This document shows positions 1,966 through 61,365 of a stretch of 64,000 nucleotides of DNA, piece by piece. How positions within the stretch are numbered: the stretch's first letter is position 1; each line of letters starts with the position of its first letter. The translations under genes and the position numbers were made by a program. The notes beneath the pieces were generated by a model that did no database searches, was not told the origin of the DNA, and saw nothing but the letters and a program-made list of their open reading frames with translations. Origin of the DNA: an uncultured Desulfatitalea sp. (GTDB lineage Bacteria > Desulfobacterota > Desulfobacteria > Desulfobacterales > Desulfosarcinaceae). The stretch spans positions 632,749-696,748 of the forward strand of contig CALMNL010000004.1 in NCBI GenBank assembly GCA_937868765.1. Direction: 5' to 3'.

Positions 1966-3246
1966 CTAGTTGAACAAGAGATTGGGCAGCCACAGGGAGA
2001 CGCTCGGCACATAGGTGATCAGCACCAGGTACAGAAACATGACCAAGATCCACGGGGCGCACGCCTTGGTGGTTTCGGTCAGCCCCAGATGGGAGATCCC
2101 CGAAGCCACATAGAGATTCAAACCCACCGGTGGCGTGATCATGCCGATTTCCATGTTCACCGTCATGAGCACCCCCAGGTGAATGGGGTCGATATTGAGA
2201 TGCATCGCCATCGGAAAGAGCAACGGGGCCGTAATCAGCAGGATGGACGATGGTTCCATGAAGTTGCCGGCGGCCAGCAGGAGAATGTTGACCATGACCA
2301 GAAAGCCCACCTTTCCGAGGCCCAAATTGGTGATCCACTCGCTCAGATGCTGGGGAATCTGCTCGGACGTCAGCAGGAATGAGAAGAGTACCGCATTGGT
2401 GATGATATAAAGGATCATCGCCGACATGTTGGCGGCGGCCAGCAATGTCTTGGGCACGTCCTTGAGGCGCATGTCGCGATAGACGAAGACGGAGACGAAA
2501 AAGGCGTAGACCGCACTCATGGCGGCCGCCTCGGTGGCGGTGAAAACCCCGGAATAGATCCCGCCGATCACCACGACGATCAACAGCAATCCCCAGATGC
2601 TTTCGCGGAAGGTGCGCAGGCGTGTGCCCCAACTGGCCTTGGGCAGACTGGGATAGTTGCGCGTCTTGGCCACCAAACCGGTTACCCCCATCAGGAGAAG
2701 GGCCAGGAAAAGCCCGGGAATGATGCCGGCGATGAAAAGCCGGCCGATGGAGGCGTTCGTGGCCACGGCGTAAATCACCATGACGATGGAGGGCGGAATC
2801 AGGATCCCCAGACTGCCGGAGGTGCCGATGACGCCCACACCGAACTTCATGGGGTAGCCCTGATCCACCATGGCCGGCAGCAGAATGGAACCGATGGCCA
2901 CCACCGTGGCCGGACTGGACCCGGATACGGCCGCGAAAAGCGCGCAGGCCACCACTCCGGCGATGGCCAATCCCCCGTGCCAGTGCCCCACCATGGCCGT
3001 GGCAAAATTGATCATCCGCCGGGCAACGCCCCCATGGGTCAGGAAGTTTCCGGCCAGGATGAAGAAGGGCACGGCCATGATTTCGAATTTCTCGATCCCG
3101 GTGAACAGCTTCATGGCCACCGCTTCGATGGGCACCTGGGTCATCGTGAAGAGAAAGGTCAGCACCGTCAGGCCCAGGGCGATGGATATGGGCATGCCGG
3201 TGAGCATCAGCACGGTCAATAGCCCGAAAATAATTATACCGCTCAT
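1966..3246 (-). CDS. dctM: TRAP transporter large permease DctM
   Basis: A 426-residue, very hydrophobic protein of the DctM/ion-transporter superfamily, close to the family's usual 425-430 residues, with 12 or more membrane segments. Typical patches are GIIIFGLLTVLMLTGMPISIALG at the N-terminus, FFILAGNFLTHGGVARRMINF, GSSPATVVAIGSILLPAM, and a C-terminal GMITPPVGLNLYV. It carries solute and Na+ across the membrane in complex with DctQ. Its ATG overlaps the stop of dctQ by 4 bases. Confidence 0.93.
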   Translation of the reverse strand: MSGIIIFGLLTVLMLTGMPISIALGLTVLTFLFTMTQVPIEAVAMKLFTGIEKFEIMAVPFFILAGNFLTHGGVARRMINFATAMVGHWHGGLAIAGVVACALFAAVSGSSPATVVAIGSILLPAMVDQGYPMKFGVGVIGTSGSLGILIPPSIVMVIYAVATNASIGRLFIAGIIPGLFLALLLMGVTGLVAKTRNYPSLPKASWGTRLRTFRESIWGLLLIVVVIGGIYSGVFTATEAAAMSAVYAFFVSVFVYRDMRLKDVPKTLLAAANMSAMILYIITNAVLFSFLLTSEQIPQHLSEWITNLGLGKVGFLVMVNILLLAAGNFMEPSSILLITAPLLFPMAMHLNIDPIHLGVLMTVNMEIGMITPPVGLNLYVASGISHLGLTETTKACAPWILVMFLYLVLITYVPSVSLWLPNLLFN

Positions 3247-3902
3247 GATAATCCTCCCTGCTCCCCGGGCAATTGATCCCTGCCGCGCCTGTCCGGTGAC
3301 GACGCGTCTTCCAGGCCGTCCACATGGCTCGCATCGTGATGGGGCAGTTGCCCGGTCCGGACGAAACGCTCAATGACCTGGAGAAAACGGAAGCACATCA
3401 GGTAAGAGCCCAGCGGCACCGCGGAATAGAAGATCCAGACGGGCCATTCCAGATCCGGGGAAACCGGTCCCTCGGTCAAATCCGGCCAATCGAGACCCAG
3501 AGTGGTGGCCACGGCATACCGCAGCCCGACCTCCCAGACGAATTTGAAGCCCAACGTACCGATGACCGCGGTAAACAAGGCCCCGCCGCTCAAACCGATG
3601 ACTACGAATTTGGCGCGATTTTTTTCTTTGAGGCTGTTGATGAAGACATCCACCCCCACATGGATTCCGGTGCGAACACCGTAAGCGGCGCCGAACTTGG
3701 CCATCCAGATGAACATATAGATGCACAACTCCTGGGCCCAGCTCATATTCAAACTCAAAAGCCAGTCCTGAACCACGGGGATGGGCCAACCGCTGGCATA
3801 GCGGTGCACCACCGCCAAGAAAATCACCATGGTGGCAGCGGCGATCAGCGAAGCGACCAGCCACTCTTCCAGGTGATCCAGAAATTTCAGTATGTGCTTC
3901 AC
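3243..3902 (-). CDS. dctQ: TRAP transporter small permease DctQ
   Basis: Four-helix small TRAP permease. I prefer the GTG at 3902 (219 residues, VKHILKFLDHLEEWL) because GGAG lies 7 bases upstream. An in-frame start at 3974 would add 24 residues with no family support. Segments of about 20 hydrophobic residues follow LEEWLVASLIAAATMVIFLAV, and the loop GVRTGIHVGVDVFINSL is typical of DctQ. The region after helix 3 (WPDLTEGPVSPDLEWPVWIF) is longer than in many DctQ proteins, as in C4-dicarboxylate DctQ. The C-terminal tail is charged. Confidence 0.9.
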   Translation of the reverse strand: MKHILKFLDHLEEWLVASLIAAATMVIFLAVVHRYASGWPIPVVQDWLLSLNMSWAQELCIYMFIWMAKFGAAYGVRTGIHVGVDVFINSLKEKNRAKFVVIGLSGGALFTAVIGTLGFKFVWEVGLRYAVATTLGLDWPDLTEGPVSPDLEWPVWIFYSAVPLGSYLMCFRFLQVIERFVRTGQLPHHDASHVDGLEDASSPDRRGRDQLPGEQGGLS

Positions 3903-49297: not shown

Positions 49298-50707
49298 ATG
49301 AAAACGATTCGCGGCAAAGTCATCTTGTTTTTCATCTTGAGCCTGGCCTTTGCCGGCGTGCTGACATCCCTGCACTACGAAATGGCATCGTCGCTGCGCC
49401 ACAGGATTTATACCATCGAGCGCTTCGACGATCTGCTCAACGACGTCCTCGAATTGCGGCGCTACGAAAAGAATTATTTCCTCTACCACGACAGGGCGAA
49501 CCTCAACGAAGAGTTGGATTATCTGGCCAGGCTCGCGGATGGCTTTGCGGCCTTGAAGGGCGACATCATCGCGGTCGTGGGACGGGCCGCCGCTGATGCT
49601 TTCCAGCGGAACATAGAGCGATACCGGCAGGTTCTGGATGCGGTCATGGTTTCGAAACCGGCCGGCACCACCCCAGGGGATGAAGAGGCCCTGCGGTCCG
49701 AAGGCAAACTGCTGCTGGATTTTACCCAGCGCCTGATCGGCGAAAAGCGCCGGCGCATCGATCGAACGCTGCGCCATGTGATGATCATTCCGGTAGCCAG
49801 CCTGGTATGCCTGATCATCCTCGTCGTCGTCACCTTCCGGTTTGTCACCCGCGGCATTTTAAGCCCCTTGTGGCTGGTGCGAAAAGCCACCGAGCAGGTG
49901 GCCGACAACACCTTCACGCCCATCGCCTACGATCGGGACAAACAGGACGAAATCACGCGCCTGATGGCCTCGTTCAATACAATGGTGGCCGAGCTCGATT
50001 CCCGGCAGGAGCAACTGCTCCAGTCCCGCAAGATGGCCTCCATCGGCACCTTTACGTCCGGAATCGCCCACGAACTGAACAATCCGCTCAACAACATCTC
50101 CATCACGGCGGAGACCCTGCAATTGAACTATGCCGCCATGAAACCCGACGAGATCGCCGAACTGATCGAAGACATTCTCACCCAGGCCGACCGGGCCAGC
50201 CAGGTGGTCAAGAACCTGCTGGAATTCTCGCGCAACGGCCGCCCCGCGCTGAGCGAGCTGGACATCGGTCAGGTGCTGGAACGCACCCTGGATCTGATCA
50301 AAAACCAATTGGTCGTGGCCCAGATCCGCATCGAGAAAGCCCTGGCCCCGAATCTGCCCGCCATTCGGGGCAAGCGCCAGGATCTGCAGCAGGCGTTCGT
50401 CAACATCTTCCTCAACGCGGTCCAGGCCATGCCCCGCGGGGGTACCCTCACGATCAAGGCTGACGATGGACCGGCAGGCCAGCTGCGTGTCGATATCACC
50501 GATACCGGCACGGGGATCAAACCTGAAGACCTGGAACACATTTTCGATCCCTTCTTTACCACCAAGGAGTTGGGGCAGGGCACGGGCCTGGGCTTGTCGC
50601 TGGTGTACAGCATCATCCGAACGCATGGCGGGCGGATCGAGGTCCAGAGCCAGGTGGGTCAGGGCACCACCTTTTCCATTTTTCTTCCCGTCCACGCACA
50701 GCAATGA
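49298..50707 (+). CDS. Sensor histidine kinase (first of two paralogues)
   Basis: A 469-residue membrane kinase. A first membrane segment (KVILFFILSLAFAGVLTSL), a periplasmic helical sensor domain with RRYEKNYFLYHDRA, a second segment at about 165-190, HAMP, then HisKA with His258 in GIAHELNNPLNNISIT. The HATPase part carries N-box NIFLNAVQAMP, DTGTGIKPED and GTGLGLSLVYSII. The sensor motif resembles helical-bimodular/four-helix ligand-binding domains. The NtrC-type activator gene follows with a 4-base overlap at its first ATG, so the two form a two-component pair. The kinase at 59326 shares the same layout. Confidence 0.92.
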   Translation: MKTIRGKVILFFILSLAFAGVLTSLHYEMASSLRHRIYTIERFDDLLNDVLELRRYEKNYFLYHDRANLNEELDYLARLADGFAALKGDIIAVVGRAAADAFQRNIERYRQVLDAVMVSKPAGTTPGDEEALRSEGKLLLDFTQRLIGEKRRRIDRTLRHVMIIPVASLVCLIILVVVTFRFVTRGILSPLWLVRKATEQVADNTFTPIAYDRDKQDEITRLMASFNTMVAELDSRQEQLLQSRKMASIGTFTSGIAHELNNPLNNISITAETLQLNYAAMKPDEIAELIEDILTQADRASQVVKNLLEFSRNGRPALSELDIGQVLERTLDLIKNQLVVAQIRIEKALAPNLPAIRGKRQDLQQAFVNIFLNAVQAMPRGGTLTIKADDGPAGQLRVDITDTGTGIKPEDLEHIFDPFFTTKELGQGTGLGLSLVYSIIRTHGGRIEVQSQVGQGTTFSIFLPVHAQQ

Positions 50708-50715
50708 GGCCACCC

Positions 50716-52071
50716 ATGAGCATCCGGATCGCCATTGTCGATGACGAGGTCACCGTCTGCCGCCGATTGAAAACGGTGTTGGAAGGGGACGGGTACACCG
50801 CGGAAGCCTTTCAGAGCGGAGAAACCTTCTGGCGGCGGATGGAAAACTTTCCCTTCCAGGTCGTTTTCCTGGACCTCACCCTGCCCGATGCGGGCGGCAT
50901 GGAGATCCTGACGCGCCTCAAGGGGCGCTTCGCCGAAACCGAGGTGATCATCATCACCGGCCAGGGCACCATCGACTCGGCCATCGAGGCCATCAAAAAG
51001 GGCGCCTACCACTACATCACCAAGCCGTTCAAACTGGAAGAGATCCGGGTGCTCGCCGCCGGCGCCCGCGAAAAGATCTCATTGATAGCAGAAAATCGCC
51101 GCCTGCGGGAAGCCGCCATGGGCGGCGATGCCTTGCTCAAAGACTTCATCGGCACCAGCGCGGCCATGCAGGAGATCTTCAACATGATCAAGAAGGTCGC
51201 CGTGGTGGACTGCAATGTGCTCTTGCAGGGCGAAAGCGGCACCGGCAAAGAGCTGGTGGCCAAATCCATCCATCGCTTGAGCCCCCGCAAGGAGTTGCCC
51301 TTCATCTCCTTCAACTGCGGGGGGTTCACCGAAGAATTGATCAGCAACGAACTCTTCGGTCACGAAAAGGGGGCGTTCACCGGCGCCACCCTGACCAAGA
51401 TCGGGTTGCTCGAATCCGCCGCCGGCGGCACCGTCTTCCTGGATGAGATCGGCGAGATGCCGGCATCGATGCAGGTCAAGCTGCTGCGTGTGCTCCAGGA
51501 AAAGCGCATCCTGAGGGTCGGTGGTACCCGCCCCATCGACCTGGATATCCGCATCATCGCCGCCAGCAACAAGGACATCAAAAAAGCCTGCCTGGAGGGG
51601 ACCTTCCGGGAAGATCTCTTCTATCGGCTCAATGTCGTCACCCTTTCCATTCCCCGTCTGAGCCAGCGAAAAGAGGACATTCACCTGTTGATCAACGCCT
51701 TCGTCGAAAAATACAGCCGGCCCTTCGGCAAGAAGATCACCGGGCTATCCCCCCAGGCGCTTGAGATTCTGCTGCGTTATGACTACCCCGGTAACGTGCG
51801 CGAGCTGGAAAATATCATCCAGCGCGCCATTGCCCTGACCGAGGGGGAGGTCATCGGCGAGGAGGGATTGCCGGACGACCTGCGAAAACTGGAAATCAAC
51901 ACCATCGACGGCGAAGGACTGCAGAGTCTGGAAGAGGTCGAACGGCAACACATCGCCAAGGTGCTGCAAAAGACGGGGGACAACAAGAACCTGGCCAGCA
52001 AGATATTGAACCTGCCTCGCACCACCCTCTGGCGCAAGCTCAAGCAGTACAATCTTCTGAAAGACAAGTGA
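50716..52071 (+). CDS. Sigma-54-dependent response regulator (NtrC family)
   Basis: A 451-residue activator. The receiver domain has phospho-acceptor Asp53 in FLDLTLPDAGG. The AAA+ domain has Walker A GESGTGKELVAK, the sigma-54-contacting GAFTGA loop (GHEKGAFTGATL) and Walker B GGTVFLDEIGE. The C-terminal Fis-type helix-turn-helix is GDNKNLASKILNLPRTTLWRKLKQY. The ATG at 50716 follows GAGG by 7 bases; an in-frame ATG at 50704 overlaps the kinase stop. It is phosphorylated by the upstream kinase. Its most likely target is the sigma-54 promoter 184 bases downstream. Confidence 0.93.
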   Translation: MSIRIAIVDDEVTVCRRLKTVLEGDGYTAEAFQSGETFWRRMENFPFQVVFLDLTLPDAGGMEILTRLKGRFAETEVIIITGQGTIDSAIEAIKKGAYHYITKPFKLEEIRVLAAGAREKISLIAENRRLREAAMGGDALLKDFIGTSAAMQEIFNMIKKVAVVDCNVLLQGESGTGKELVAKSIHRLSPRKELPFISFNCGGFTEELISNELFGHEKGAFTGATLTKIGLLESAAGGTVFLDEIGEMPASMQVKLLRVLQEKRILRVGGTRPIDLDIRIIAASNKDIKKACLEGTFREDLFYRLNVVTLSIPRLSQRKEDIHLLINAFVEKYSRPFGKKITGLSPQALEILLRYDYPGNVRELENIIQRAIALTEGEVIGEEGLPDDLRKLEINTIDGEGLQSLEEVERQHIAKVLQKTGDNKNLASKILNLPRTTLWRKLKQYNLLKDK

Positions 52072-52097: not shown

Positions 52098-52193
52098 GTT
52101 CCATTTTGAAACAGACCATTTTCCCTCCATTTACTATCCCCTCGATTATCCTCGCAATATCCATACAGGAGCCGTTTTGTTTCAAATTGAAAC
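52098..52193. promoter_or_regulatory. Paired candidate enhancer sites for the sigma-54 activator
   Basis: The perfect palindrome GTTTCAAATTGAAAC (52179-52193) and a related copy GTTCCATTTTGAAAC (52098-52112, 12 of 15 identical) are 81 bases apart. They lie 60-160 bases upstream of the -24/-12 promoter and directly after the activator gene. The paired layout is typical of upstream activator sequences. Confidence 0.65.
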
Positions 52194-52254
52194 TGGACAG
52201 TGCCAAGCCTCCCCATTATTTTCTTAACTATTTGTTATTATTGTACTTTTTAAA

Positions 52255-52270
52255 TGGCACAGCCCTTGCT
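52255..52270 (+). promoter_or_regulatory. Sigma-54 promoter of the Usp/phosphotransferase operon
   Basis: TGGCACAGCCCTTGCT matches the TGGCAC-N5-TTGCW consensus exactly with correct spacing. It ends 26 bases before the usp ATG at 52297, and AAAGGAG (52279-52285) is the ribosome-binding site. Confidence 0.88.
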
Positions 52271-52296
52271 GAACCCTTTTTTCAAAGGAGTGTGCC

Positions 52297-52731
52297 ATGG
52301 AAAAAATCCTGGTGGCCATGGACTCCGCATGGACCCATTTTCTGGCTGCAGTCCATGCGCTGGGCCTGGCCAAGCGCATCAAGGCCAAGGTCTCATTTCT
52401 CCTGATCTTCCCTTCGCCACCGACGGGTCTGGCATACCCCGCCGAAACCGCCGACGCGGCTCTGGTCAAAAAGAGAATCGATGCGCTCGTCGAGGAGGCC
52501 CGCGCCGACGGGGTGGTCATCGACTACTACCTGGCATACGGCGACTATGAAAACGAACTGCTGAATTTCGTCCAGGAGCACCGCGTGACGCTGCTGGTGA
52601 TCGAATCCAGCACGTCATCGGGGCGTGCGCCCGAAGCAGCCCGGGAATTCATCGACAAGCTGCGGCACCGAATCAACTGCCGCATCGAAATCGTCAACGA
52701 AAAACAGGAATCTCAACCAAGAAAGGATTAA
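52297..52731 (+). CDS. Universal stress protein, divergent, first gene of the sigma-54 operon
   Basis: A 144-residue single Usp domain. The N-terminus MEKILVAMDSAWTHFLAAVHALGLAKRI and the beta strand VTLLVIESSTSSG fit the fold. The glycine-rich ATP loop is not evident (SSGRAPEAAREFIDKL), so it may be a non-nucleotide-binding Usp. It is the first gene after the consensus sigma-54 promoter, and 5 bases separate it from the permease gene. Confidence 0.82.
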   Translation: MEKILVAMDSAWTHFLAAVHALGLAKRIKAKVSFLLIFPSPPTGLAYPAETADAALVKKRIDALVEEARADGVVIDYYLAYGDYENELLNFVQEHRVTLLVIESSTSSGRAPEAAREFIDKLRHRINCRIEIVNEKQESQPRKD

Positions 52732-52735
52732 AGCC

Positions 52736-53656
52736 GTGTGGCACCTGTACCTTCCGATCGCGGGTAATAGCGTGAACATCTTGTTGATCTTCGTCATGGG
52801 CGGGATGGTCGGTTTACTGTCAGGCATCTTCGGCGTGGGCGGCGGCTTCCTGATGACCCCACTGCTGATCATGGTCGGTATTCCGCCCACCGTGGCGGCC
52901 GCCTCCGACTCCAATCAAATCGTGGGGGCCTCCACCTCCGGCACGCTGGCCCACTATCGCATGGGCAACGTGGATTTCAAGATGGGCATCCTTTTGCTCA
53001 TCGGCGGCATTTTCGGCGGTACCCTGGGCGTTCAGCTCATCAAGGTGCTGCGGCATATGGGCAATGCCGATTTCCTGATCCAGATCACCTATGTGGTGAT
53101 GCTCGGCTTCGTGGGCAGCTACATGTTCGTGGAGAGTCTTCAGGGGCTGCGCGGCCCGCAGAAGAAAACGGCGGTCCCTCAGAAGGAATCGGGATATGCC
53201 CGTCTGGTCAAGCGTCTGCCCTGGCAGACGCGATTCGATAAATCGGGGGTCGAATTGTCCATCCTGATGCCCCTGCTGCTGGGCACCTTCGTGGGCGTCC
53301 TGGCGGCGATCATGGGGGTGGGCGGCGGCTTCATCATGGTACCGGTGATGGTCTACCTGCTGCGCATGCCCATGCACGTGGTGGTGGGGACCAGCCTGTT
53401 TCAGATTCTGTTCACCTGCATCAATGTCACCATCATGCAGGCCAACACCAATCATACGGTGGATTTTGTCCTGGCCCTGATCCTGCTGATTGGATCAACG
53501 CTGGGCGCGCAGTTCGGCGCCAAGATCAGCCGGCGTTTGAAAGGCGATCAACTCAAAATCATCCTGGCGTCGCTGGTGCTGCTGGTGATGGTCAAAATGC
53601 TTTTCGACCTCTTGCTTAAACCGGCCGTCCTGCTGTCCTACATCGGAGGGCATTAA
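52736..53656 (+). CDS. TSUP (TauE/SafE) family membrane permease
   Basis: About 306 residues from a GTG at 52736 with GAAAGGA 8 bases upstream. Eight or so membrane segments in two related halves, each with the family repeat: GIFGVGGGFLMTPLL and AIMGVGGGFIMVPVM. Family members move sulfite, organosulfonates or other organic anions. The next gene (TIGR02186) is a frequent genomic partner. In a sulfur-metabolising anaerobe, sulfite or thiosulfate movement is the best guess, but substrate is unproven. Confidence 0.88.
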   Translation: MWHLYLPIAGNSVNILLIFVMGGMVGLLSGIFGVGGGFLMTPLLIMVGIPPTVAAASDSNQIVGASTSGTLAHYRMGNVDFKMGILLLIGGIFGGTLGVQLIKVLRHMGNADFLIQITYVVMLGFVGSYMFVESLQGLRGPQKKTAVPQKESGYARLVKRLPWQTRFDKSGVELSILMPLLLGTFVGVLAAIMGVGGGFIMVPVMVYLLRMPMHVVVGTSLFQILFTCINVTIMQANTNHTVDFVLALILLIGSTLGAQFGAKISRRLKGDQLKIILASLVLLVMVKMLFDLLLKPAVLLSYIGGH

Positions 53657-53657
53657 C

Positions 53658-54431
53658 ATGCGCACGAAAATACTTCTTGTGGCAATGGTGTGTTTTGCGG
53701 CCCTGGCATTCGATCTCTGGGCGGATGATTCACCCCCGCAGACGACCTTCAGCGTGCATCCCGGACAGATCCGGATCGGCGCGGATTTCAACGGCGATAC
53801 GGTGACCGTGACCGGCCGGATACCCGCGGATGCCACGGCGATGATTCGCATTACCGGACAACCGGAAACCTGCAAGCTGAAGGAAAAGGGGCGCGTCCTG
53901 GGCATTTTGTGGATGAATCTCGGCTCGGTGGAAATTCGCAAGGTTCCCAGCGTGTTTCTGACCTATCTGCCCGAGGGGCCGCACGATCCATGGCTTGCGG
54001 ACAAGTTGCAGACGCTCGGCCTGCAGGGGTTGCGCCGCCAGGCGGAGATCCTGCCGGCGGACAAGCAGCAGGACTCGGTTTTCGAAGAATTTCTGAAGTT
54101 GAAACGCAAGGGCGGCCTGTATAGCGCCGTGGACCAGGCCATCGTGTTAGGACCGGCAGATGGCTCCACACGATCGGTGAGCGCCAGCCTGGCACTGCCG
54201 GCGGCGCTTCCGGCAGGGCATTTCGTTGTCGAACTGATCAGCCTGCGCAAGGACGCCGAGCCGATCGCGGCCAATCAACAGATCACGGTGAGTGAAGTCG
54301 GCATGCCGGCCTGGATCTCCAATCTGGCGTTCAAGCATGGCACCCTTTACGGTGTGCTGTCCGTTCTGGTGGCCGTGATCGCCGGCCTGATGACCGGCAT
54401 CGTGTTCAAAGGCGGCAAGGGATCTCATTGA
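53658..54431 (+). CDS. TIGR02186 family exported, membrane-anchored protein
   Basis: A 257-residue protein. It has a signal peptide (KILLVAMVCFAALAFDLWA), an Ig-like/beta-rich periplasmic domain starting FSVHPGQIRIGADFNGDTVTVTG, and one C-terminal membrane helix (TLYGVLSVLVAVIAGLMTGIVF) with a short cytoplasmic tail. The order and the GxRIGxxFxG start match the TIGR02186/Alph_Pro_TM family, whose function is unknown. It is separated by one base from the TSUP permease, which it may assist. Confidence 0.8.
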   Translation: MRTKILLVAMVCFAALAFDLWADDSPPQTTFSVHPGQIRIGADFNGDTVTVTGRIPADATAMIRITGQPETCKLKEKGRVLGILWMNLGSVEIRKVPSVFLTYLPEGPHDPWLADKLQTLGLQGLRRQAEILPADKQQDSVFEEFLKLKRKGGLYSAVDQAIVLGPADGSTRSVSASLALPAALPAGHFVVELISLRKDAEPIAANQQITVSEVGMPAWISNLAFKHGTLYGVLSVLVAVIAGLMTGIVFKGGKGSH

Positions 54432-54483
54432 GGCGGTCAACGCCGCAGGCGTTGCCGCTGTGCATATTTCGGAATGGTGCCAT

Positions 54484-57069
54484 ATGGCCCAAATGATCGA
54501 CCCAGTGATCGATTGGATTCGCGGAATGCTCGCTCCCCGCGGCCGGCCCCACGAAGCGGTCACTTTTGCTTCCCTGTTCCAGACTTTTCAGAGAATCCTG
54601 GAACTCAACAACCGCATCCTGGAGCTCATGGCGGACATGGGCGCGAAGCTCGGCGGCGATTATGTCTTCGATCGGCAGTATATCGCCGACTCGAGCCGGA
54701 AGATGGCCAATCTGGTGTATGAGCTGATCTACAATTTCAATGCATTGGCGCCTCGAAAGTATCTGGATCTGGACGACCGCTTCCGCCACATCAATCACGA
54801 TATCGAGGAAGAGCTGGCGGGCCGGTTGGTGATTCCGAGAACGCAATACGTCATGGCCTATGACATCATCACAGGAGATTTCGACGACGTGGTGGGCGGC
54901 AAAAACGCGCATGCAGCCGAAATCCGCAACCGTCTCGGCCTGACGGTACCGGAAGGGTTTGCCATCACCACCCGGGCGTTCGGCTCCTTTATGGAACACA
55001 ATGGCTTCCAGGACCGCATTTCAGGCATCCTGAAGCAGTGGGAAGAAGGAGAGATCTCCTCGGAAGCGGCCTCCGGCACCATCAGGCCGCTGATCGCCTC
55101 CGGCGCCGTGCCCCCGGCCTTGGGCCGCGCCATACAGAAAGCACTCAAACAGCTTTCTAAAAAAAACGATCGGCGTCCGTTGCATCTGGCCGTGCGCAGC
55201 AGTGCCATGGGAGAAGACAGTGAACATACCTTCGCAGGTCAGTACCTGAGTTTGTTGAACCAGCCGCCCCAGCGCCTGGCGCAAAGCTACAAGGAGATAA
55301 TCGCCAGCGCCTACTCGTCCCATGCCATGGAATACAGGCGCCAGAAGGGCATCTCGGAACACGAGGTGGCCATGGCCGTGGCATGTCAATGCATGATCGA
55401 CGCCAAGGTCAGCGGTGTGCTGTATTCCTTCGATCCCATGGACCCGGCCAGTGAAGTTATAATGATCTCGGCGGCCTGGGGGCTGGGGGCGCCCATCGTC
55501 AGCGGCCAGGTGACGGCCGATCGCTTCACAGTTTCGCGCGGCCGGCCGTTCACGATTCAAAGTCGGCAAATCGTACGCAAGGAGCGCCGCCTGGCGCTCA
55601 AACCGGACGAGGGCTGCGACTGGCAACCGGTGGACCCGGCATTGCAGTCCCGTGAAACCCTTTCCGAAGCGCAGATCCGGGAGTTGTGCGAGGCGGCGCT
55701 GACCATCGAAAGATATTACAAGTGCCCCCAGGACATCGAGTGGGCTATCGATCAGCAGGAGCGCCTGCATATCCTTCAGGCCCGGGCCTTGAACGTCAGA
55801 TCCCGCATGGCGCCGGTGGTATGCGACGTCGCTTCGGTCACCGATCAGTTTCCCGTGGTATTTTCCCACAAAGGCGTCATCGTTCAAAACGGAATCGCTT
55901 CAGGCGAAGTCTATTTGGCCCGGCCGGATGACGATCTGGAGCGGTTCCCCAACGGTGCGATCCTGGTGGCCAGGGAGACATCCCCCCGCTTTGCCAAAGT
56001 GGCTCGCAAGGCCGCCGGCATCATCACCGATGTGGGCAGCGCCACCGGCCACATGGCCGCCATCGCCCGCGAATTTCGAATCCCCACCATCGTGGGCACC
56101 GACACGGCGACGCAGCTGCTCGCACCGGGCCGGGAGATCACCCTGGATGCCCAGGAGAATGCCGTCTACCTCGGGCGCATCAAGGAGCTTTGCTATTTCA
56201 ATTTCATGGAAGATGCCTTCGAAGAGAGTTACGAATATCGGCTTTTGCGGCGGGTGCTCAAGAAGATCACGCCCCTGAAGCTGGTGGACCCGCACGCGAA
56301 GCTCTTCGCTGCGAAGGCCTGCAGCAGCTTTCATGACATCACCCGCTTCATCCATGAAAAAGCCGTGGAAGAGCTGACCAACATCAACTTCCACCACGGC
56401 CTGCGCGACGAAACCGCCAGCAAACGGCTCAAATCCGACATCCCCCTGGATTTGATCCTCATCGACATCCGCAACGGCCTGCAGGCGCTTAGCGACGAAG
56501 GCTTCGTCACCCGGGAACAGGTCCGCTCGATTCCCATGGGGGCCTTTCTGGACGGCTTGTGCTCTCCGGGCGCCTGGAGCCGGGAACCCATGTCCGTGGA
56601 TTTCGGCGGATTCATGTCCAGCCTGACCCGCACCTTTTCGTCCCACCAGGCCAACCCGCGCAATGTGGGGCAGAACCTGGCCGTGATCTCCGATACCTAT
56701 GCCAATATCAACCTGCGCCTGGGGTATCATTTCAACATGATCGATGCCTATATCGGCGAGCACATCAACGACAACTACGCCTACTTTCGTTTCCTGGGCG
56801 GCGTAACCGAACCGATGCGACGCTCCCGCCGGGCCAGATTCATCTATGAGTCGCTGGCACGCAACGATTTTATCGTCGATCTGCGCGGCGATCTGGTCAT
56901 CGGCCGCATTAAAAAGCTCGGCGCGTCGCTCATGCAGCGCAAGATGTATCTGCTGGGGCAGTTGGTCGGCTTCAGCCGTCAGCTCGACGTGAAAATGACC
57001 GACGACAGCCAGATCGGCGCCTTCGTAAGCGAGTTCGATCGATTGGTACAAAACGCAATGACCACATGA
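54484..57069 (+). CDS. PEP synthase/PPDK-like phosphotransferase with a non-standard C-terminus
   Basis: About 861 residues. Residues 1-125 are helical. Then follows the ATP-grasp domain of PEP synthase/PPDK (VVGGKNAHAAEI, VPEGFAITTRAF, LAVRSSAMGEDSEHTFAGQY, RLHILQARAL). The swivelling phosphohistidine domain is VGSATGHMAAIAREFRIPTIVG, with His523 in the catalytic place. The PEP/pyruvate TIM barrel that normally follows is missing. About 290 residues of unrecognised sequence take its place. ATP-driven phosphorylation of the histidine is therefore likely, but the final acceptor is unknown, and a protein or small metabolite is possible. A GTG at 54460 is an alternative start. It precedes the receiver gene in the sigma-54 operon. 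Confidence 0.82.
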   Translation: MAQMIDPVIDWIRGMLAPRGRPHEAVTFASLFQTFQRILELNNRILELMADMGAKLGGDYVFDRQYIADSSRKMANLVYELIYNFNALAPRKYLDLDDRFRHINHDIEEELAGRLVIPRTQYVMAYDIITGDFDDVVGGKNAHAAEIRNRLGLTVPEGFAITTRAFGSFMEHNGFQDRISGILKQWEEGEISSEAASGTIRPLIASGAVPPALGRAIQKALKQLSKKNDRRPLHLAVRSSAMGEDSEHTFAGQYLSLLNQPPQRLAQSYKEIIASAYSSHAMEYRRQKGISEHEVAMAVACQCMIDAKVSGVLYSFDPMDPASEVIMISAAWGLGAPIVSGQVTADRFTVSRGRPFTIQSRQIVRKERRLALKPDEGCDWQPVDPALQSRETLSEAQIRELCEAALTIERYYKCPQDIEWAIDQQERLHILQARALNVRSRMAPVVCDVASVTDQFPVVFSHKGVIVQNGIASGEVYLARPDDDLERFPNGAILVARETSPRFAKVARKAAGIITDVGSATGHMAAIAREFRIPTIVGTDTATQLLAPGREITLDAQENAVYLGRIKELCYFNFMEDAFEESYEYRLLRRVLKKITPLKLVDPHAKLFAAKACSSFHDITRFIHEKAVEELTNINFHHGLRDETASKRLKSDIPLDLILIDIRNGLQALSDEGFVTREQVRSIPMGAFLDGLCSPGAWSREPMSVDFGGFMSSLTRTFSSHQANPRNVGQNLAVISDTYANINLRLGYHFNMIDAYIGEHINDNYAYFRFLGGVTEPMRRSRRARFIYESLARNDFIVDLRGDLVIGRIKKLGASLMQRKMYLLGQLVGFSRQLDVKMTDDSQIGAFVSEFDRLVQNAMTT

Positions 57070-57091
57070 ATGACTATGGGAGGAAACCACC

Positions 57092-57487
57092 ATGACCAAT
57101 GCAGTGAAAACCAGGATACTTGTCCTTGATGACGAACCCATTGTCCTCAAGCGATTGGGCCCGGCGCTGGAGAAAGCGGGATACTTTGTGGAGGTGTTTT
57201 CCCGCGGCGCAGAGGCCTCCGGACGATTCCAGCAAGAAAACTTCGACATCGTCATCACCGACTTGAAAATGGAGGGACTGGACGGAATGCAGTTCCTGAC
57301 CCAGGTCAAGGAGCGCTCTCCGCGTACGGAAGTGATCGTGATCACCGGTTTCGCCACCATGGACACGGCCAAGGAGTCTTACCAGAAAGGGGTCTTCGAC
57401 TTCCTGGCGAAACCGTTCAAGCTGGGTGAAATTCTGGAGACGGTCAAGAAAGCCGAGCAGAAAATTCAGCAGAATCAAACGGCCTGA
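57092..57487 (+). CDS. Single-domain response regulator
   Basis: A 131-residue CheY-like receiver. DDEPIVLKRL acidic pocket, phospho-acceptor Asp57 in VIITDLKMEGLDG, TGFATMDTAKESYQKG with the conserved threonine region, and KPFKLGEI with the lysine. It has no output domain, so it probably works by binding a partner such as the kinase or the neighbouring phosphotransferase or Usp proteins. GGGAGG precedes the ATG. The kinase at 59326 is the probable phosphate donor. Confidence 0.92.
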   Translation: MTNAVKTRILVLDDEPIVLKRLGPALEKAGYFVEVFSRGAEASGRFQQENFDIVITDLKMEGLDGMQFLTQVKERSPRTEVIVITGFATMDTAKESYQKGVFDFLAKPFKLGEILETVKKAEQKIQQNQTA

Positions 57488-57551
57488 GAAACATTGCCTG
57501 GGCAAAGCGCCAAATGGAGCGGCTCCCAGACCAAGAAAAAGGAGAAGGGAA

Positions 57552-58388
57552 ATGATAAATGCGTTGATATCATTAAACGCCGACCTGGCATCGAGTATCG
57601 CCTTCCGATATTCGTGCCGCCTGATGAAATTTGTCGACATGCGCCTGCAAGCCATGCACGTGGAAGAGGTGGCCAAGGATGAATTTCCACCCGGCAGCGG
57701 CTGGGTGCGCAGCACATGGGAAAAGGGATTGCTGCAGGCGGCCCAGGAGGAGATCGCGCAGTTGATCAATGCGGAAAAGCCCCACTGCGCACCGATGGAC
57801 AACACCATCATACGCATCGGCAACCGCGAAGACGAACTGCTGCGTGAACTCGAGGAGAACCGGTACGATCTTTTGCTGGAAGGCGCATTGAACGCTTTCG
57901 ATGCGCAGCATTTTCACAAGAAGATTCATTCCAAATTATACAAATATATGCCTTGCCCGATCCTGCTGATCAAGAACCTGGTCGATCCGAGCCAGGCTGC
58001 ACTGATAGTGGGCGATATCGAAGATGTGCATCCCCTGGTAGCGACTTTCACCAGGCTCTTCGAAAAAACGCAGATCAAATTGGATCTGGTCTTCTTCAGC
58101 GACAAGCCTGCCGGTCAGGCCGAGATCCGAACCAGATTGTCGGAGGCGCCGCATCCCCTGCAGCAACGAGCGGCGCAGGTCCTCGATGCCGCCAGGGGGG
58201 CCCTGGCCGGACATGGGTGGACACCACAGGATAGCTGGGTAGTGCAAAACAAGCCCCAGAAGATCGGCGAAATGCTCGGTGACTACGGCCTTGTCGGGGC
58301 CTACCTGCCGTCGGCGGCCAGCCGTAAGCACTTTGCCATGGATCTGTTGAGCCGGATTCCGACGGCCACATTACTATGCAAACCATAA
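57552..58388 (+). CDS. Divergent universal stress protein-like protein
   Basis: A 278-residue protein. The ATG at 57552 follows GGAGAAGGGAA. It reads as two Usp-like halves: the first ends YMPCPILLIKNL, as Usp domains end in a PVLVV-type strand, and the second starts AALIVGDIEDVHPLVATFTRLFEKTQIKLDLVFF. The ATP loop is not obvious in either half. An ordinary BLAST-level match to UspA may be weak. It sits between the receiver and tandem Usp genes and may be a partner of either. Confidence 0.7.
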   Translation: MINALISLNADLASSIAFRYSCRLMKFVDMRLQAMHVEEVAKDEFPPGSGWVRSTWEKGLLQAAQEEIAQLINAEKPHCAPMDNTIIRIGNREDELLRELEENRYDLLLEGALNAFDAQHFHKKIHSKLYKYMPCPILLIKNLVDPSQAALIVGDIEDVHPLVATFTRLFEKTQIKLDLVFFSDKPAGQAEIRTRLSEAPHPLQQRAAQVLDAARGALAGHGWTPQDSWVVQNKPQKIGEMLGDYGLVGAYLPSAASRKHFAMDLLSRIPTATLLCKP

Positions 58389-58400
58389 GGGGAGTCTATC

Positions 58401-59294
58401 ATGAAGATTCTAGTCGCCGTGGATCAGTATGACTACAGTCGCCATGCAGTGGATGAGGTGGCGAAACTCGCTGCCAATACCTGGGCCAATATCACTCTCT
58501 TCGGGGTTCAGCCCAAACGGGCCGTTGGAACCAGGCGCGCCGCCGAATTAAAGATAGTACAGGCCACCGATGGCCCGCTGCCCGAAGCGCTCTTCACCCT
58601 GCACCGCGAATTTCTCTCCTATTTTGACGGGCGCGAATGCCCATATGCCCCGGCCAATGCCCATGAAAAGCTCACCGAAGTCCACAAAGGCGTTTTCGAA
58701 CTCGCGGAGGGAAGCGGTGCGGCCAGGAAAAAACTCACCATTCGAATGCGCATCGGCAATCCCGCCAACGAAATTCTATCCGAGGCCAAAGAAGAGGAGA
58801 GCGACCTGATCGTCCTGGGATGCGATCACACCAACGCGTCCGGGTGGGAGAATGCTGCCAGCGTGCCCCGCAAGATCGCCGGCAGCGCCCTGTGTTCGGT
58901 GCTGGTGGTCAAGAAGAAAAGGGATGTTCAACGCATCGTCTGTTGCCTGGACCACGACCGTATCAGCCAGCCCTCTCTGGAGATGATCAACCAGATGGTC
59001 ACCCTTCACAAGGCGCCTCTGACCATCGTGGGGCTCACGGACCACCAGGCGCTCAAGACCGAGGTTGAAAAGAAGATGGACAAGATCCTGCGTTACTATC
59101 ACGCCCGTCAGATCGACCCCTGGATTGAACTGGTGGAAATCTCGGCCCTGGAGTCGTTCATCGCCCGCGAAACCCGCTGGGGTCTTCTGGCGCTGTGGAT
59201 GGGCAAGCAATCCATCCTCACCAAGGCCCTGCCCCGTAGCAAGGTCAACCAGTTGATCAAGGGCGGCGATGCGTCCGTACTGATCCTTCGGTAG
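58401..59294 (+). CDS. Universal stress protein, tandem-domain
   Basis: A 297-residue protein with two Usp units. The first starts MKILVAVDQYDYSRHAVDEVAKLA and ends SDLIVLGCDHTN followed by SVPRKIAGSALCSVLVVKKK. The second (VQRIVCCLDHDRISQPSLEMINQMV) ends with GLLALWMGKQSI and GGDASVLILR. The first half keeps an ATP-loop-like pattern and the second is degenerate. It starts 12 bases after the preceding gene, in the same sigma-54 operon. Confidence 0.85.
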   Translation: MKILVAVDQYDYSRHAVDEVAKLAANTWANITLFGVQPKRAVGTRRAAELKIVQATDGPLPEALFTLHREFLSYFDGRECPYAPANAHEKLTEVHKGVFELAEGSGAARKKLTIRMRIGNPANEILSEAKEEESDLIVLGCDHTNASGWENAASVPRKIAGSALCSVLVVKKKRDVQRIVCCLDHDRISQPSLEMINQMVTLHKAPLTIVGLTDHQALKTEVEKKMDKILRYYHARQIDPWIELVEISALESFIARETRWGLLALWMGKQSILTKALPRSKVNQLIKGGDASVLILR

Positions 59295-59325
59295 GGCCGG
59301 ACCTTTCACCTGAAGGACGCATGGG

Positions 59326-60825
59326 ATGATGACTGCCAGCCGGATCATTTCCTCTTCTTCCGCCGATCTCGAATCCGCCGAGCGGGCCTTGAAGCAGCGC
59401 CCGAAGTTCAGCATCCGCCTCAGGGTCGCCCTGGGGTTCATGCTGACCTTCGCGCTGATCTGTGCCGTCACCCTCACAGGCATCGTGTTTATCTCCAAAC
59501 TCGGCGCCAAGCAGCTCTTCATCGAAAAAGCGGGCAACTACACTTTCGAAATCCAGCAAGCCCGGCGCTTCGAGAAGAACTTTCTGCTTTACGGGACTGA
59601 CCTGTTCGACGCCCTGGTGGATGTGAACAATGCCCAAACGGTGCTGGAGGCCTCCCGCCAGGATTTCATCGCCACCATCGGGGAGAGCGCCTTCAACCGC
59701 ATGGCCGCGAATCTGAAACGCTACCATGATTTGCTCGAAAGCCTGGAAAAGATGGGGACCGGTTCCGATGTGGTCACGGCCGACCAGCGCGGGCGATTCC
59801 AATCCGAACTGCGGCGCTCGGGCGCGGAACTGGTGACCGATGCGGCCAACGCCATCGACCAGGAGCGGCTGAGTTTTCATACCTGGCTGCATACTTCCAA
59901 GATCATCGCGGTTTCGGCGCTGGTGCTCATCCTGTTGATCGAAACCTATATCGTCACTTTTATCGCGCGCCAGATATTTCTTCCGTTCAAGCGATTCGAA
60001 AGTTACATGCGGCGCATCGCCACAGGAGATTTTTCCCCGATCACGCCGGTCAAGCGCTTCCAGGACGAATTCACCGACCTGGCCGTGGCAGTCAACCGCA
60101 TGCTCAAGGAGATCCAGGACCGCGGCAACCAGCTGGTAGAGTCCCGGAAGATGGCGGCCATCGGCACCCTGACCGCGGGCATCGCCCATGAAATCAACAA
60201 TCCCCTCAACAACATCAGTTTGACCACCGAGGCTTTGATCGATGACTTTCAGACTTTGCCCGAGGAAGAAAAGCTCGACATGCTCAAAGACATTTTCGGT
60301 CAAGTCGAACGAGCCGGCGCGACGGTGGCCAATTTACTGGACTTCACCCAACGGGACCGCAGCGCCTTCAAACCCACCGACATCCGCATGGTTCTCGAAT
60401 CCACGGCGGCCCTGCTGCAGAACGAGCTGCAGCTGAGCCACATTACCCTTACCCTGACGGCCGAGCCGGATCTCCCGCTGATCAGCGGGCACCATCAAAA
60501 TCTTCAACAGGTTTTTCTCAACCTGTTTCTCAACGCCAAAGAAGCCATGCCCGGCGGCGGCGAGCTGTCGGTCAAGAGCATTCGGCAGGAGAGCCTCGTG
60601 CGCATCGAGGTGCGGGACACAGGTGTCGGCATCCCCCCCGAGAACCTGGGACGCATTTTCGATCCTTTCTTCACCACCAAGGAGGTCGGCAAGGGCATGG
60701 GCCTGGGCCTGTCGGTCAGTTTCGGCATTGTCGAGCGACACCATGGCACTATCATCGCAAAAAGCGAGCAAGGCAAGGGCAGCACATTCACAGTGCTTCT
60801 GCCAATCTCCGATCGGCCAGATTAG
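59326..60825 (+). CDS. Sensor histidine kinase (second paralogue)
   Basis: A 499-residue kinase. Membrane segments lie near residues 42-62 (GFMLTFALICAVTLTGIVFIS) and 193-213. Between them is a helical sensor domain containing QARRFEKNFLLYGTD, matching the RRYEKNYFLY motif of the kinase at 49298. HAMP follows, then His288 in GIAHEINNPLNNISLT, N-box NLFLNAKEAMP, DTGVGIPPEN and GMGLGLSVSFGIV. No regulator follows directly; the lone receiver at 57092 is its likely partner. Last gene of the sigma-54 operon. Confidence 0.92.
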   Translation: MMTASRIISSSSADLESAERALKQRPKFSIRLRVALGFMLTFALICAVTLTGIVFISKLGAKQLFIEKAGNYTFEIQQARRFEKNFLLYGTDLFDALVDVNNAQTVLEASRQDFIATIGESAFNRMAANLKRYHDLLESLEKMGTGSDVVTADQRGRFQSELRRSGAELVTDAANAIDQERLSFHTWLHTSKIIAVSALVLILLIETYIVTFIARQIFLPFKRFESYMRRIATGDFSPITPVKRFQDEFTDLAVAVNRMLKEIQDRGNQLVESRKMAAIGTLTAGIAHEINNPLNNISLTTEALIDDFQTLPEEEKLDMLKDIFGQVERAGATVANLLDFTQRDRSAFKPTDIRMVLESTAALLQNELQLSHITLTLTAEPDLPLISGHHQNLQQVFLNLFLNAKEAMPGGGELSVKSIRQESLVRIEVRDTGVGIPPENLGRIFDPFFTTKEVGKGMGLGLSVSFGIVERHHGTIIAKSEQGKGSTFTVLLPISDRPD

Positions 60826-60837
60826 ATATTCTCCGCC

Positions 60838-60887
60838 ATCGGAATCTTTGATTCCGATTTAAGATAAACCGGAATCAAGGCTTCCTA
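60838..60887. promoter_or_regulatory. Tandem inverted repeats, candidate enhancer sites
   Basis: Site 1 (60838-60858) is a perfect inverted repeat with 9-bp arms ATCGGAATC and GATTCCGAT around TTT. Site 2 (60869-60887) is a weaker copy, CCGGAATC-AAG-GCTTCCTA. Their centres are 30 bases apart, three helical turns, and lie about 150-180 bases before the next sigma-54 promoter. Site 1 alone could also act as an operon-end hairpin. Confidence 0.55.
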
Positions 60888-61024: not shown

Positions 61025-61040
61025 TGGCACTGCTCTTGCA
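61025..61040 (+). promoter_or_regulatory. Second consensus sigma-54 promoter
   Basis: TGGCACTGCTCTTGCA fits TGGCAC-N5-TTGCA exactly. It lies 43 bases before the ATG at 61084 and closely resembles the promoter at 52255-52270. Confidence 0.88.
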
Positions 61041-61083: not shown

Positions 61084-61365
61084 ATGCGACGCAACGTGCT
61101 GTCAAGGTGCATCCTCGCGGGTTTTATGGCGGTTTTCATCTTTGCCGCTTCGGCTATGGGCGCCGAGAAAACCATCGTCGGAGAGGTCAATGACAACTTC
61201 CAGATCGTTTCCGGCAACCAGATCTATGAGATCGAAGATACCGAAAAAGGGAAGGATCTGGCCGAAAACCATGTCGGCGCCAAAGTGAAGGTCACCGGCA
61301 GCGTGGAAGAACGCGATGACATGAAGATATTGACCGTAGTCTCCTACAAGGTTCTATCCGAATAG
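61084..61365 (+). CDS. Small exported protein, OB-fold-like
   Basis: 93 residues. The ATG at 61084 follows AAAGGAG by 8 bases. The signal peptide (RCILAGFMAVFIFAASAMG) is probably cut before AEKTIVGEV. The mature 70 residues alternate short beta strands (TIVGEVNDNFQIVSGNQIYE, then GAKVKVTGSVEERDDMKIL), as in small periplasmic OB-fold proteins such as BOF or DUF5666-like proteins. No catalytic residues or cysteines are seen in the mature part. It is the first gene after the second sigma-54 promoter, so it is probably strongly inducible. Confidence 0.75.
   Translation: MRRNVLSRCILAGFMAVFIFAASAMGAEKTIVGEVNDNFQIVSGNQIYEIEDTEKGKDLAENHVGAKVKVTGSVEERDDMKILTVVSYKVLSE

Follow-up and report, generated by a model that had tools for sequence, protein, structure and literature searches.

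What controls the eight-gene operon that follows a histidine kinase and NtrC-type regulator pair in the genome of an uncultured Desulfatitalea sp., and what might such a mixture of genes do? The operon lies in a 64,000-nucleotide stretch ("the window"; contig CALMNL010000004.1, positions 632,749 to 696,748), where eight codirectional genes run on the + strand from 52297 to 60825, separated by gaps of 1-64 bp and directly after the kinase (HK1) and the regulator (Table 1). They encode Usp-type proteins, a TSUP (TauE/SafE) permease, a TIGR02186 protein, a dikinase-like protein (PPDKL), a single-domain receiver (REC) and a second kinase (HK2). A preliminary description had listed the kinase/NtrC pair, two palindromes, an exact sigma-54 promoter and the eight same-strand genes with small gaps, all of which are present; Pfam likewise matches the TSUP permease, the protein resembling phosphoenolpyruvate (PEP) synthase, the receiver and the second kinase. 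Of its three stress proteins, usp1 and usp3 pass Pfam Usp, and uspX2, weakly Usp-like, falls below the cut-off. We consider it probable that this is a self-contained, sigma-54-dependent operon of dsrA-bearing Desulfobacterota that makes an anion permease and subjects it to two-tier control.

Homologous operons were collected by PPDKL similarity, not by gene context, which gave 46 orthologous loci, non-redundant at <80% PPDKL identity. Among 40 fetched loci, L091 (whose contig starts inside PPDKL) and L113 lie outside the upstream set, and L102 and L104 were removed because they are >80% identical to L100. Nine of 29 loci from a search of genome contigs entered the conservation counts. Three others, L010, L026 (a Desulfatibacillum alkenivorans contig) and L028, are the same as the fetched L084, L086 and L083, and the rest were truncated or distant and went unused.

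The preliminary description had staked its reading on conservation of palindromes and promoter before homologous operons, and such conservation is what we found. The motif GTTTCA-N3-TGAAAC, with up to 2 mismatches in 12 positions, precedes the operon at all 36 loci where this NtrC type is in view (model score >500) and at 3 of the 10 where it is not, or 3 of 8 when L118 and L119, whose upstream DNA is truncated and which were scored as negatives, are left out. At least two operator sites are present in 27 of the 36 loci, and TGGCAY-N5-TTGCW with at most one mismatch in 26. Within the same 48 sequences, the exact motif occurs 13 times in 22.8 kb of regulatory DNA versus twice in 846 kb elsewhere; with up to two mismatches the counts are 74 versus 68. 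The N3 form was picked after the first upstream comparison of the loci, and the window's own 14-base motif recurs with up to two mismatches in 12 of 13 regions and with up to four in all 13. The NtrC proteins of all 36 loci have the recognition helix RTTLWR in common; two NtrC paralogs that belong to other PPDKL clusters in the source genome have a different one. Judged from this conservation, the palindromes are an operator code tied to the regulator type. L113, although outside the 46-locus set, also carries the motif (with one and with two mismatches) and a sigma-54 site with one mismatch. No mention of the motif strings turned up in the open-licence literature searched.

Spacings of 32 neighbouring site pairs cluster at 40-43 bp (7 pairs) and 80-85 bp (13 pairs), about four and eight helical turns. 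A helical phasing rule was considered and dropped: the evidence for a 10.5-bp period is weak (R 0.33; p 0.03 relative to uniform spacings, with kinship ignored), and some other periods match or exceed its score. The spacing has two modes and does not amount to a rule.

Loose matches to either consensus within the window alone are about what chance would often give. Sites within one mismatch of the sigma-54 consensus number 6 (2.7 expected; 8 of 100 shuffles reach 6), and sites within three mismatches of the palindrome number 4 (1.8 expected; 11 of 100 shuffles reach that). The exact operator site is beyond chance, because an exact GTTTCA-N3-TGAAAC, or two sites with at most one mismatch, arose in 0 of 20,000 shuffles that permuted the 225-bp gap by single bases, and because the 5.36-Mb genome has just one copy of exact GTTTCAANTTGAAAC. 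The spacing between proximal site and promoter is identical in L003, L011 and L083. With up to two mismatches, the source genome holds 14 sites (3 for a backwards control), of which two are the window pair. The remaining 12 are single and all overlap an open reading frame (ORF) of at least 80 amino acids, some of these ORFs surely being spurious, and a sigma-54-like site (one mismatch) lies within 400 bp of one of them, L052. A wider regulon in this genome was therefore rejected, and by these matches the window pair is its sole clear regulator target. At L052 (contig 16) the motif stands at 1501 and the sigma-54-like match at 1717, 216 bp downstream, which may be chance.

Across 29 genomes, 17 exact sites occur in 13 genomes, compared with 4 for the backwards control. 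Eight lie at the operon promoter, two near the operon (L108 and L110) and seven elsewhere. The L108 site, at 2420, stands before a second TSUP gene (2766-3767) at that locus, which the regulator may also control; the L110 site is near the HK1/NtrC junction.

Control of this kind has precedents. The preliminary description had called sigma-54 control of Usp genes uncommon, a view not supported by two reported regulons, as far as the available excerpts of the reports go. In a sulfate reducer, the NtrC-type regulator DVU3305 controls DVU3302-3298, and UspA-type domains are present in some of these (Rajeev et al. 2011; Kazakov et al. 2015; PMC3333781, PMC4641369). A putative anion transporter of that regulon, DVU3299, is important in chlorate. 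Here, as proposed for our operon, an NtrC-type regulator and sigma-54 act on adjoining UspA, membrane and anion-transport genes. In contrast to our operon, that system has a Lon-type receiver (DVU3303), and the excerpts do not mention a PPDK-like gene; a Pfam scan found no Lon-domain receiver among ten window proteins. In Myxococcus xanthus, according to excerpts of McAllister et al. 2025 (PMC11841059), the NtrC-like NmpR resembles our regulator, as interpreted here, in its paired palindromes, sigma-54 dependence, a Usp gene as target and control of its own signalling genes. Unlike ours, its site is GCGCA-N5-TGCGC, the copies are mostly 14-15 bp apart, and it serves seven promoters and oxygen-related genes.

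The genes behind the promoter are conserved to different degrees. TSUP, TIGR02186 and PPDKL are each present in 46 of 46 loci and REC in 45, and the strict order TSUP-TIGR02186-PPDKL-REC holds in 42; the four exceptions reflect a contig end (L007), artefacts of ORF starts (L111, L119) and a split TIGR02186 (L117). The Usp genes are common but dispensable (usp1 in 31, uspX2 in 25 and usp3 in 26 of the 46). At six loci (L094, L095, L099, L105, L111 and L114) the HK1/NtrC pair is divergent and two extra PPDKL genes follow REC in tandem. Among operon genomes (PPDKL score of at least 670 bits), 39 of 41 carry dsrA, versus 165 of 353 others (Fisher p 5e-10, a value that ignores relatedness). The operon is thus nearly confined to dsrA-bearing, that is, sulfate- or sulfite-reducing, Desulfobacterota. 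The dsrA matches of ten genomes (G017, G172, G083, G107, G145, G073, G123, G253, G132 and G213) each contain one in-frame stop, which may simply be the natural stop that the search had read through.

PPDKL has a helical N-terminus, a PPDK_N ATP domain, a phosphohistidine swivel domain with His531, and a C-terminal domain of ~290 amino acids. His531 is kept throughout the aligned PPDKLs (34 of 34 and 29 of 29), and HD..RF.HE, YH....D, N, RF.GG, RR and RQLD are invariant in the C-terminal domain. Residues ~110-575 find their best sequence matches in PEP synthases, and the ATP domain and catalytic His of those enzymes are present; against the PEP synthase equivalog, PPDKL scores 331 bits where the cut-off is 598. 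Residues 575-869, the last 295, match no Pfam family at E up to 10 (HMMER filters hide most matches above 0.1) and no PDB sequence, so the C-terminal PEP/pyruvate domain of PEP synthase was not found. Because neither Pfam nor PDB offers a sequence relative of its C-terminal domain, PPDKL is best described as dikinase-like, with a non-standard phosphate acceptor part: a domain without assigned family appears to replace the usual one. A PhoU-like N-terminus, hinted at only at E 0.085, is not claimed.

Confidence in the structural model of PPDKL is modest (pLDDT 79, pTM 0.64). Among the best 50 of 699 Foldseek matches, PEP synthase, rifampin phosphotransferase and PPDK lead, followed by ATP-grasp and swivel-domain proteins. 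Whole-length alignments to rifampin phosphotransferase, in the same best 50, cover nearly the whole model, with TM scores to the query of at most 0.34, and the C-terminal part may have a distant fold likeness to that enzyme. Rifampin phosphotransferase is the best-known dikinase with a replaced acceptor part; its drug-binding domain lies between the other two domains, an order unlike that of PPDKL. PPDKL thus shares the PPDK_N ATP domain and phosphohistidine swivel domain with PEP synthase and rifampin phosphotransferase, whereas it has its own C-terminal domain in place of their acceptor parts and an extra helical N-terminus.

Four further PPDKL copies, with 35-37% identity, are encoded in the source genome. 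Further PPDKL clusters of this genome (L037-L040, on contigs 11 and 2) include TSUP, receivers, Cache or 4HB sensor kinases and their own NtrC regulators, and the PPDKL module seems to have multiplied there with different sensors. Of the phylum's 394 genomes, 387 have a PPDK-type match of some kind, although at the weak end these are more distant dikinase-type proteins. We compared 20 loci of second-tier PPDKL copies, hand-picked at one per genome from 20 genomes and several of them cut by contig ends, with 20 control stretches. The controls were drawn from 10 genomes that are complete or nearly so, four of which are shared, and the pooled set served to broaden the TSUP model. TSUP is encoded within ~8 kb in 15 of 20 versus 0 of 20 controls, a single-domain receiver is nearby in 14 versus 0, and a kinase in 16 versus 1.

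One relative of this module has phenotypes. The preliminary description knew of no named system of such composition, but the TSUP/kinase/receiver/PPDKL core is paralogous to the "nitrate cluster," DVU0251-DVU0245 of Desulfovibrio vulgaris and Dde_0597-0605 of D. alaskensis (Korte et al. 2014, PMC4001038). The available excerpts of that report describe single insertions in the TauE gene DVU0251, in DVU0250, in the receiver gene DVU0247 and in the PPDK-like gene DVU0246, all of which gave equal growth with and without 100 mM nitrate. Its authors propose a leaky thiosulfate transporter, and they cite as unpublished data that G20 mutants are mildly sick on thiosulfate. Both systems combine a TauE/SafE permease, a histidine kinase, a single receiver and a protein with PPDK_N and mobile domains. 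Unlike our operon, the nitrate cluster has a PtxB-like binding protein, a phosphatase and, in place of TIGR02186, another small protein (212 amino acids in L123), and the excerpts list no Usp. Pfam found neither a PtxB-like binding protein nor a DSP-type phosphatase among the ten window proteins from HK1 to HK2. In four genomes (G348, G244, G184 and G037) a PtxB-like gene, a kinase, a receiver and a PPDKL paralog occur in that order, preceded by a TSUP gene in the first three; the one such cluster checked for a DSP-type phosphatase, that of G037, has it, and a fifth PtxB match (G379, L127) has no PPDKL alongside. Gene order and protein sizes are the grounds for equating these four clusters with DVU0251-0245.

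These comparisons suggest how the operon may work. HK1 would phosphorylate the NtrC-type regulator, which would bind the paired GTTTCA-N3-TGAAAC sites, as their conserved code implies, and open the -24/-12 promoter before usp1. This first tier would set expression, and a second tier, formed by HK2 and REC acting with PPDKL, would set permease activity; HK1 and HK2 would then be sibling sensors, one for expression and one for activity. TIGR02186 would serve as a membrane-anchored partner of the permease. The parts of PEP synthase that bind ATP and carry the phosphohistidine are conserved in PPDKL, which is presumably active. Because insertions in the permease, receiver and dikinase genes of the nitrate cluster share one nitrate resistance, analogy suggests that receiver and dikinase are needed for permease function. 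Those phenotypes, together with the dsrA association, suggest a permease that in nature most likely carries a sulfur oxyanion, for example thiosulfate or sulfite. The preliminary description had suggested that, through its second kinase, the operon may feed back on its own signal. However, HK2-to-REC is the likeliest pairing as judged from gene neighbourhoods, because at L012, L014 and L030 an HK2-type kinase lies beside TSUP-TIGR02186-PPDKL-REC with no such NtrC in view.

Besides the relatedness ignored in the dsrA test, a number of observations weigh against this two-tier model. The lower-scoring NtrC of L117 has RTTLWR, yet the 54 bp that precede its TSUP operon hold no motif; among the 36 loci, a good sigma-54 match is missing in 10, and 9 have one operator site only. 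Neither TSUP nor a single receiver was found at 3 of the 20 paralog loci, and a full NtrC is near 10 of them but also near 5 of 20 controls. In the excerpts from Korte et al. (PMC4001038), DVU0245 mutants are still nitrate-sensitive, the kinase DVU0248 (an annotated pseudogene in D. vulgaris) has little or no effect singly, and pooled and single-mutant results for DVU0250 conflict. The nitrate-cluster-type TSUP is distant (52-55 bits to the operon TSUP model) and was not found in the G037 stretch, and PPDKLs of that type are only 30-32% identical to that of the operon; the nitrate-cluster phenotype may not carry over.

Several other explanations deserve consideration. The operon might be an anion-stress operon like that of DVU3305 and DVU3298-3302, in which TSUP exports a toxic anion (sulfite, or one like chlorate), the Usps protect and the dikinase is a side activity. 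The Usp genes within the operon, the UspA-type and membrane proteins and the chlorate role in the DVU3305 regulon, and the Pfam family name (sulfite exporter TauE/SafE) would fit. We nevertheless find it rather unlikely, given that the Usp genes are so often absent while the TSUP-TIGR02186-PPDKL-REC core is near universal, and that several nitrate-cluster mutants are more, not less, resistant in the excerpts of PMC4001038. If PPDKL simply served gluconeogenesis as an ordinary PEP synthase, the matches of its middle part would make sense, but the unmatched last 295 residues and the score well under the equivalog cut-off make this very improbable. Scarcely more credible is that the palindromes serve another regulator or are structural, with the operon promoter elsewhere. 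The exact sites located away from the operon, and the motif at loci without this NtrC in view, would fit, but motif presence follows this NtrC type and its recognition helix.

The operon is, then, probably an NtrC/sigma-54-controlled transporter operon of a known kind, with a plausible candidate for a new transport-control mechanism inside. We raise more tentatively, as a doubtful extension of the two-tier model, that PPDKL and the receiver could together be a phosphohistidine switch, fed by ATP, through which TSUP permeases are gated or energised. Such proteins might make up a widespread, undescribed class of dikinase-dependent anion transporters with several differently regulated copies per genome, of which our operon would be the most conserved, sulfur-linked form. 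If a dikinase does control the permease, this would account for the way in which one mutation in any of several seemingly unrelated genes renders sulfate reducers resistant to nitrate dosing, and membrane transport would gain a new mode of control. The regulator, operator and operon form a concrete, testable set for cultured and uncultured sulfate reducers, and poorly understood Desulfovibrio nitrate-resistance genes are now placed in a large module family.

Table 1. Operator sites, promoter and genes of the operon and its regulatory pair, in window coordinates
Feature	Position	Strand	Evidence or remark
HK1, membrane histidine kinase, likely partner of the NtrC-type regulator	49298..50707	+	Pfam HAMP/HisKA/HATPase_c
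NtrC-type response regulator (receiver, AAA+ with GAFTGA, Fis-type helix-turn-helix)	50704..52071	+	Pfam; GAFTGA loop; recognition helix RTTLWR
Distal enhancer-like site GTTCCATTTTGAAAC	52098-52112	.	12/15 copy, 81 bp upstream of proximal site
Proximal enhancer-like site GTTTCAAATTGAAAC, perfect palindrome	52179-52193	.	sole exact copy in genome
Sigma-54 promoter TGGCACAGCCCTTGCT, exact TGGCAC-N5-TTGCT (-24/-12)	52255-52270	+	76 bp from proximal site
usp1, small Usp-type protein without ATP motif	52297..52731	+	Pfam Usp 5.1e-8
TSUP (TauE/SafE) permease, presumed start GTG 52736	52736..53656	+	Pfam TauE 1.4e-51
TIGR02186/Alph_Pro_TM protein	53658..54431	+	Pfam 9.8e-39
PPDKL, dikinase-like protein	54460..57069	+	Pfam PPDK_N and PEP-utilisers mobile domain
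REC, single-domain receiver	57092..57487	+	Pfam Response_reg
uspX2, weakly Usp-like protein	57552..58388	+	Pfam Usp E 0.028 (permissive scan), below cut-off
usp3, Usp-type protein without ATP motif	58401..59294	+	Pfam Usp 3.9e-16
HK2, second membrane histidine kinase, likely partner of REC	59326..60825	+	Pfam HK

HK1 adjoins the NtrC-type gene in many orthologous loci, and HK1 and HK2 have homologous sensor regions (25% identity over 234 columns, E 1e-17). The permease passes the Pfam TauE cut-off at 175.9 bits versus 32.6. TIGR02186 has a predicted N-terminal helix, then a beta sandwich, then a C-terminal hydrophobic helix; its AlphaFold model (pLDDT 88) has weak PDB matches of beta-sandwich type (TM score to query at most 0.34), and no paper on the family turned up in the open-licence literature searched. 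In REC, the acidic, Asp and Lys residues that a phosphorylatable receiver should have are present. The ATP-binding motif G-2X-G-9X-G(S/T) is absent from all three Usp-type proteins. A role in anti-phage defence was considered and rejected, PADLOC having returned no match for six operon proteins.

Beyond the operon, a second exact sigma-54 promoter, TGGCACTGCTCTTGCA, occurs at 61025 before a 93-amino-acid ORF with a hydrophobic start (61084-61365) and no Pfam match. Upstream of it, at 60840, lies an inverted repeat, CGGAATC-TTT-GATTCCG, with a two-mismatch copy 30 bp further on. Because the inverted repeat occurs in exact form nowhere else in the genome (31 sites with up to two mismatches; control 3), this promoter is likely to be served by a different activator.

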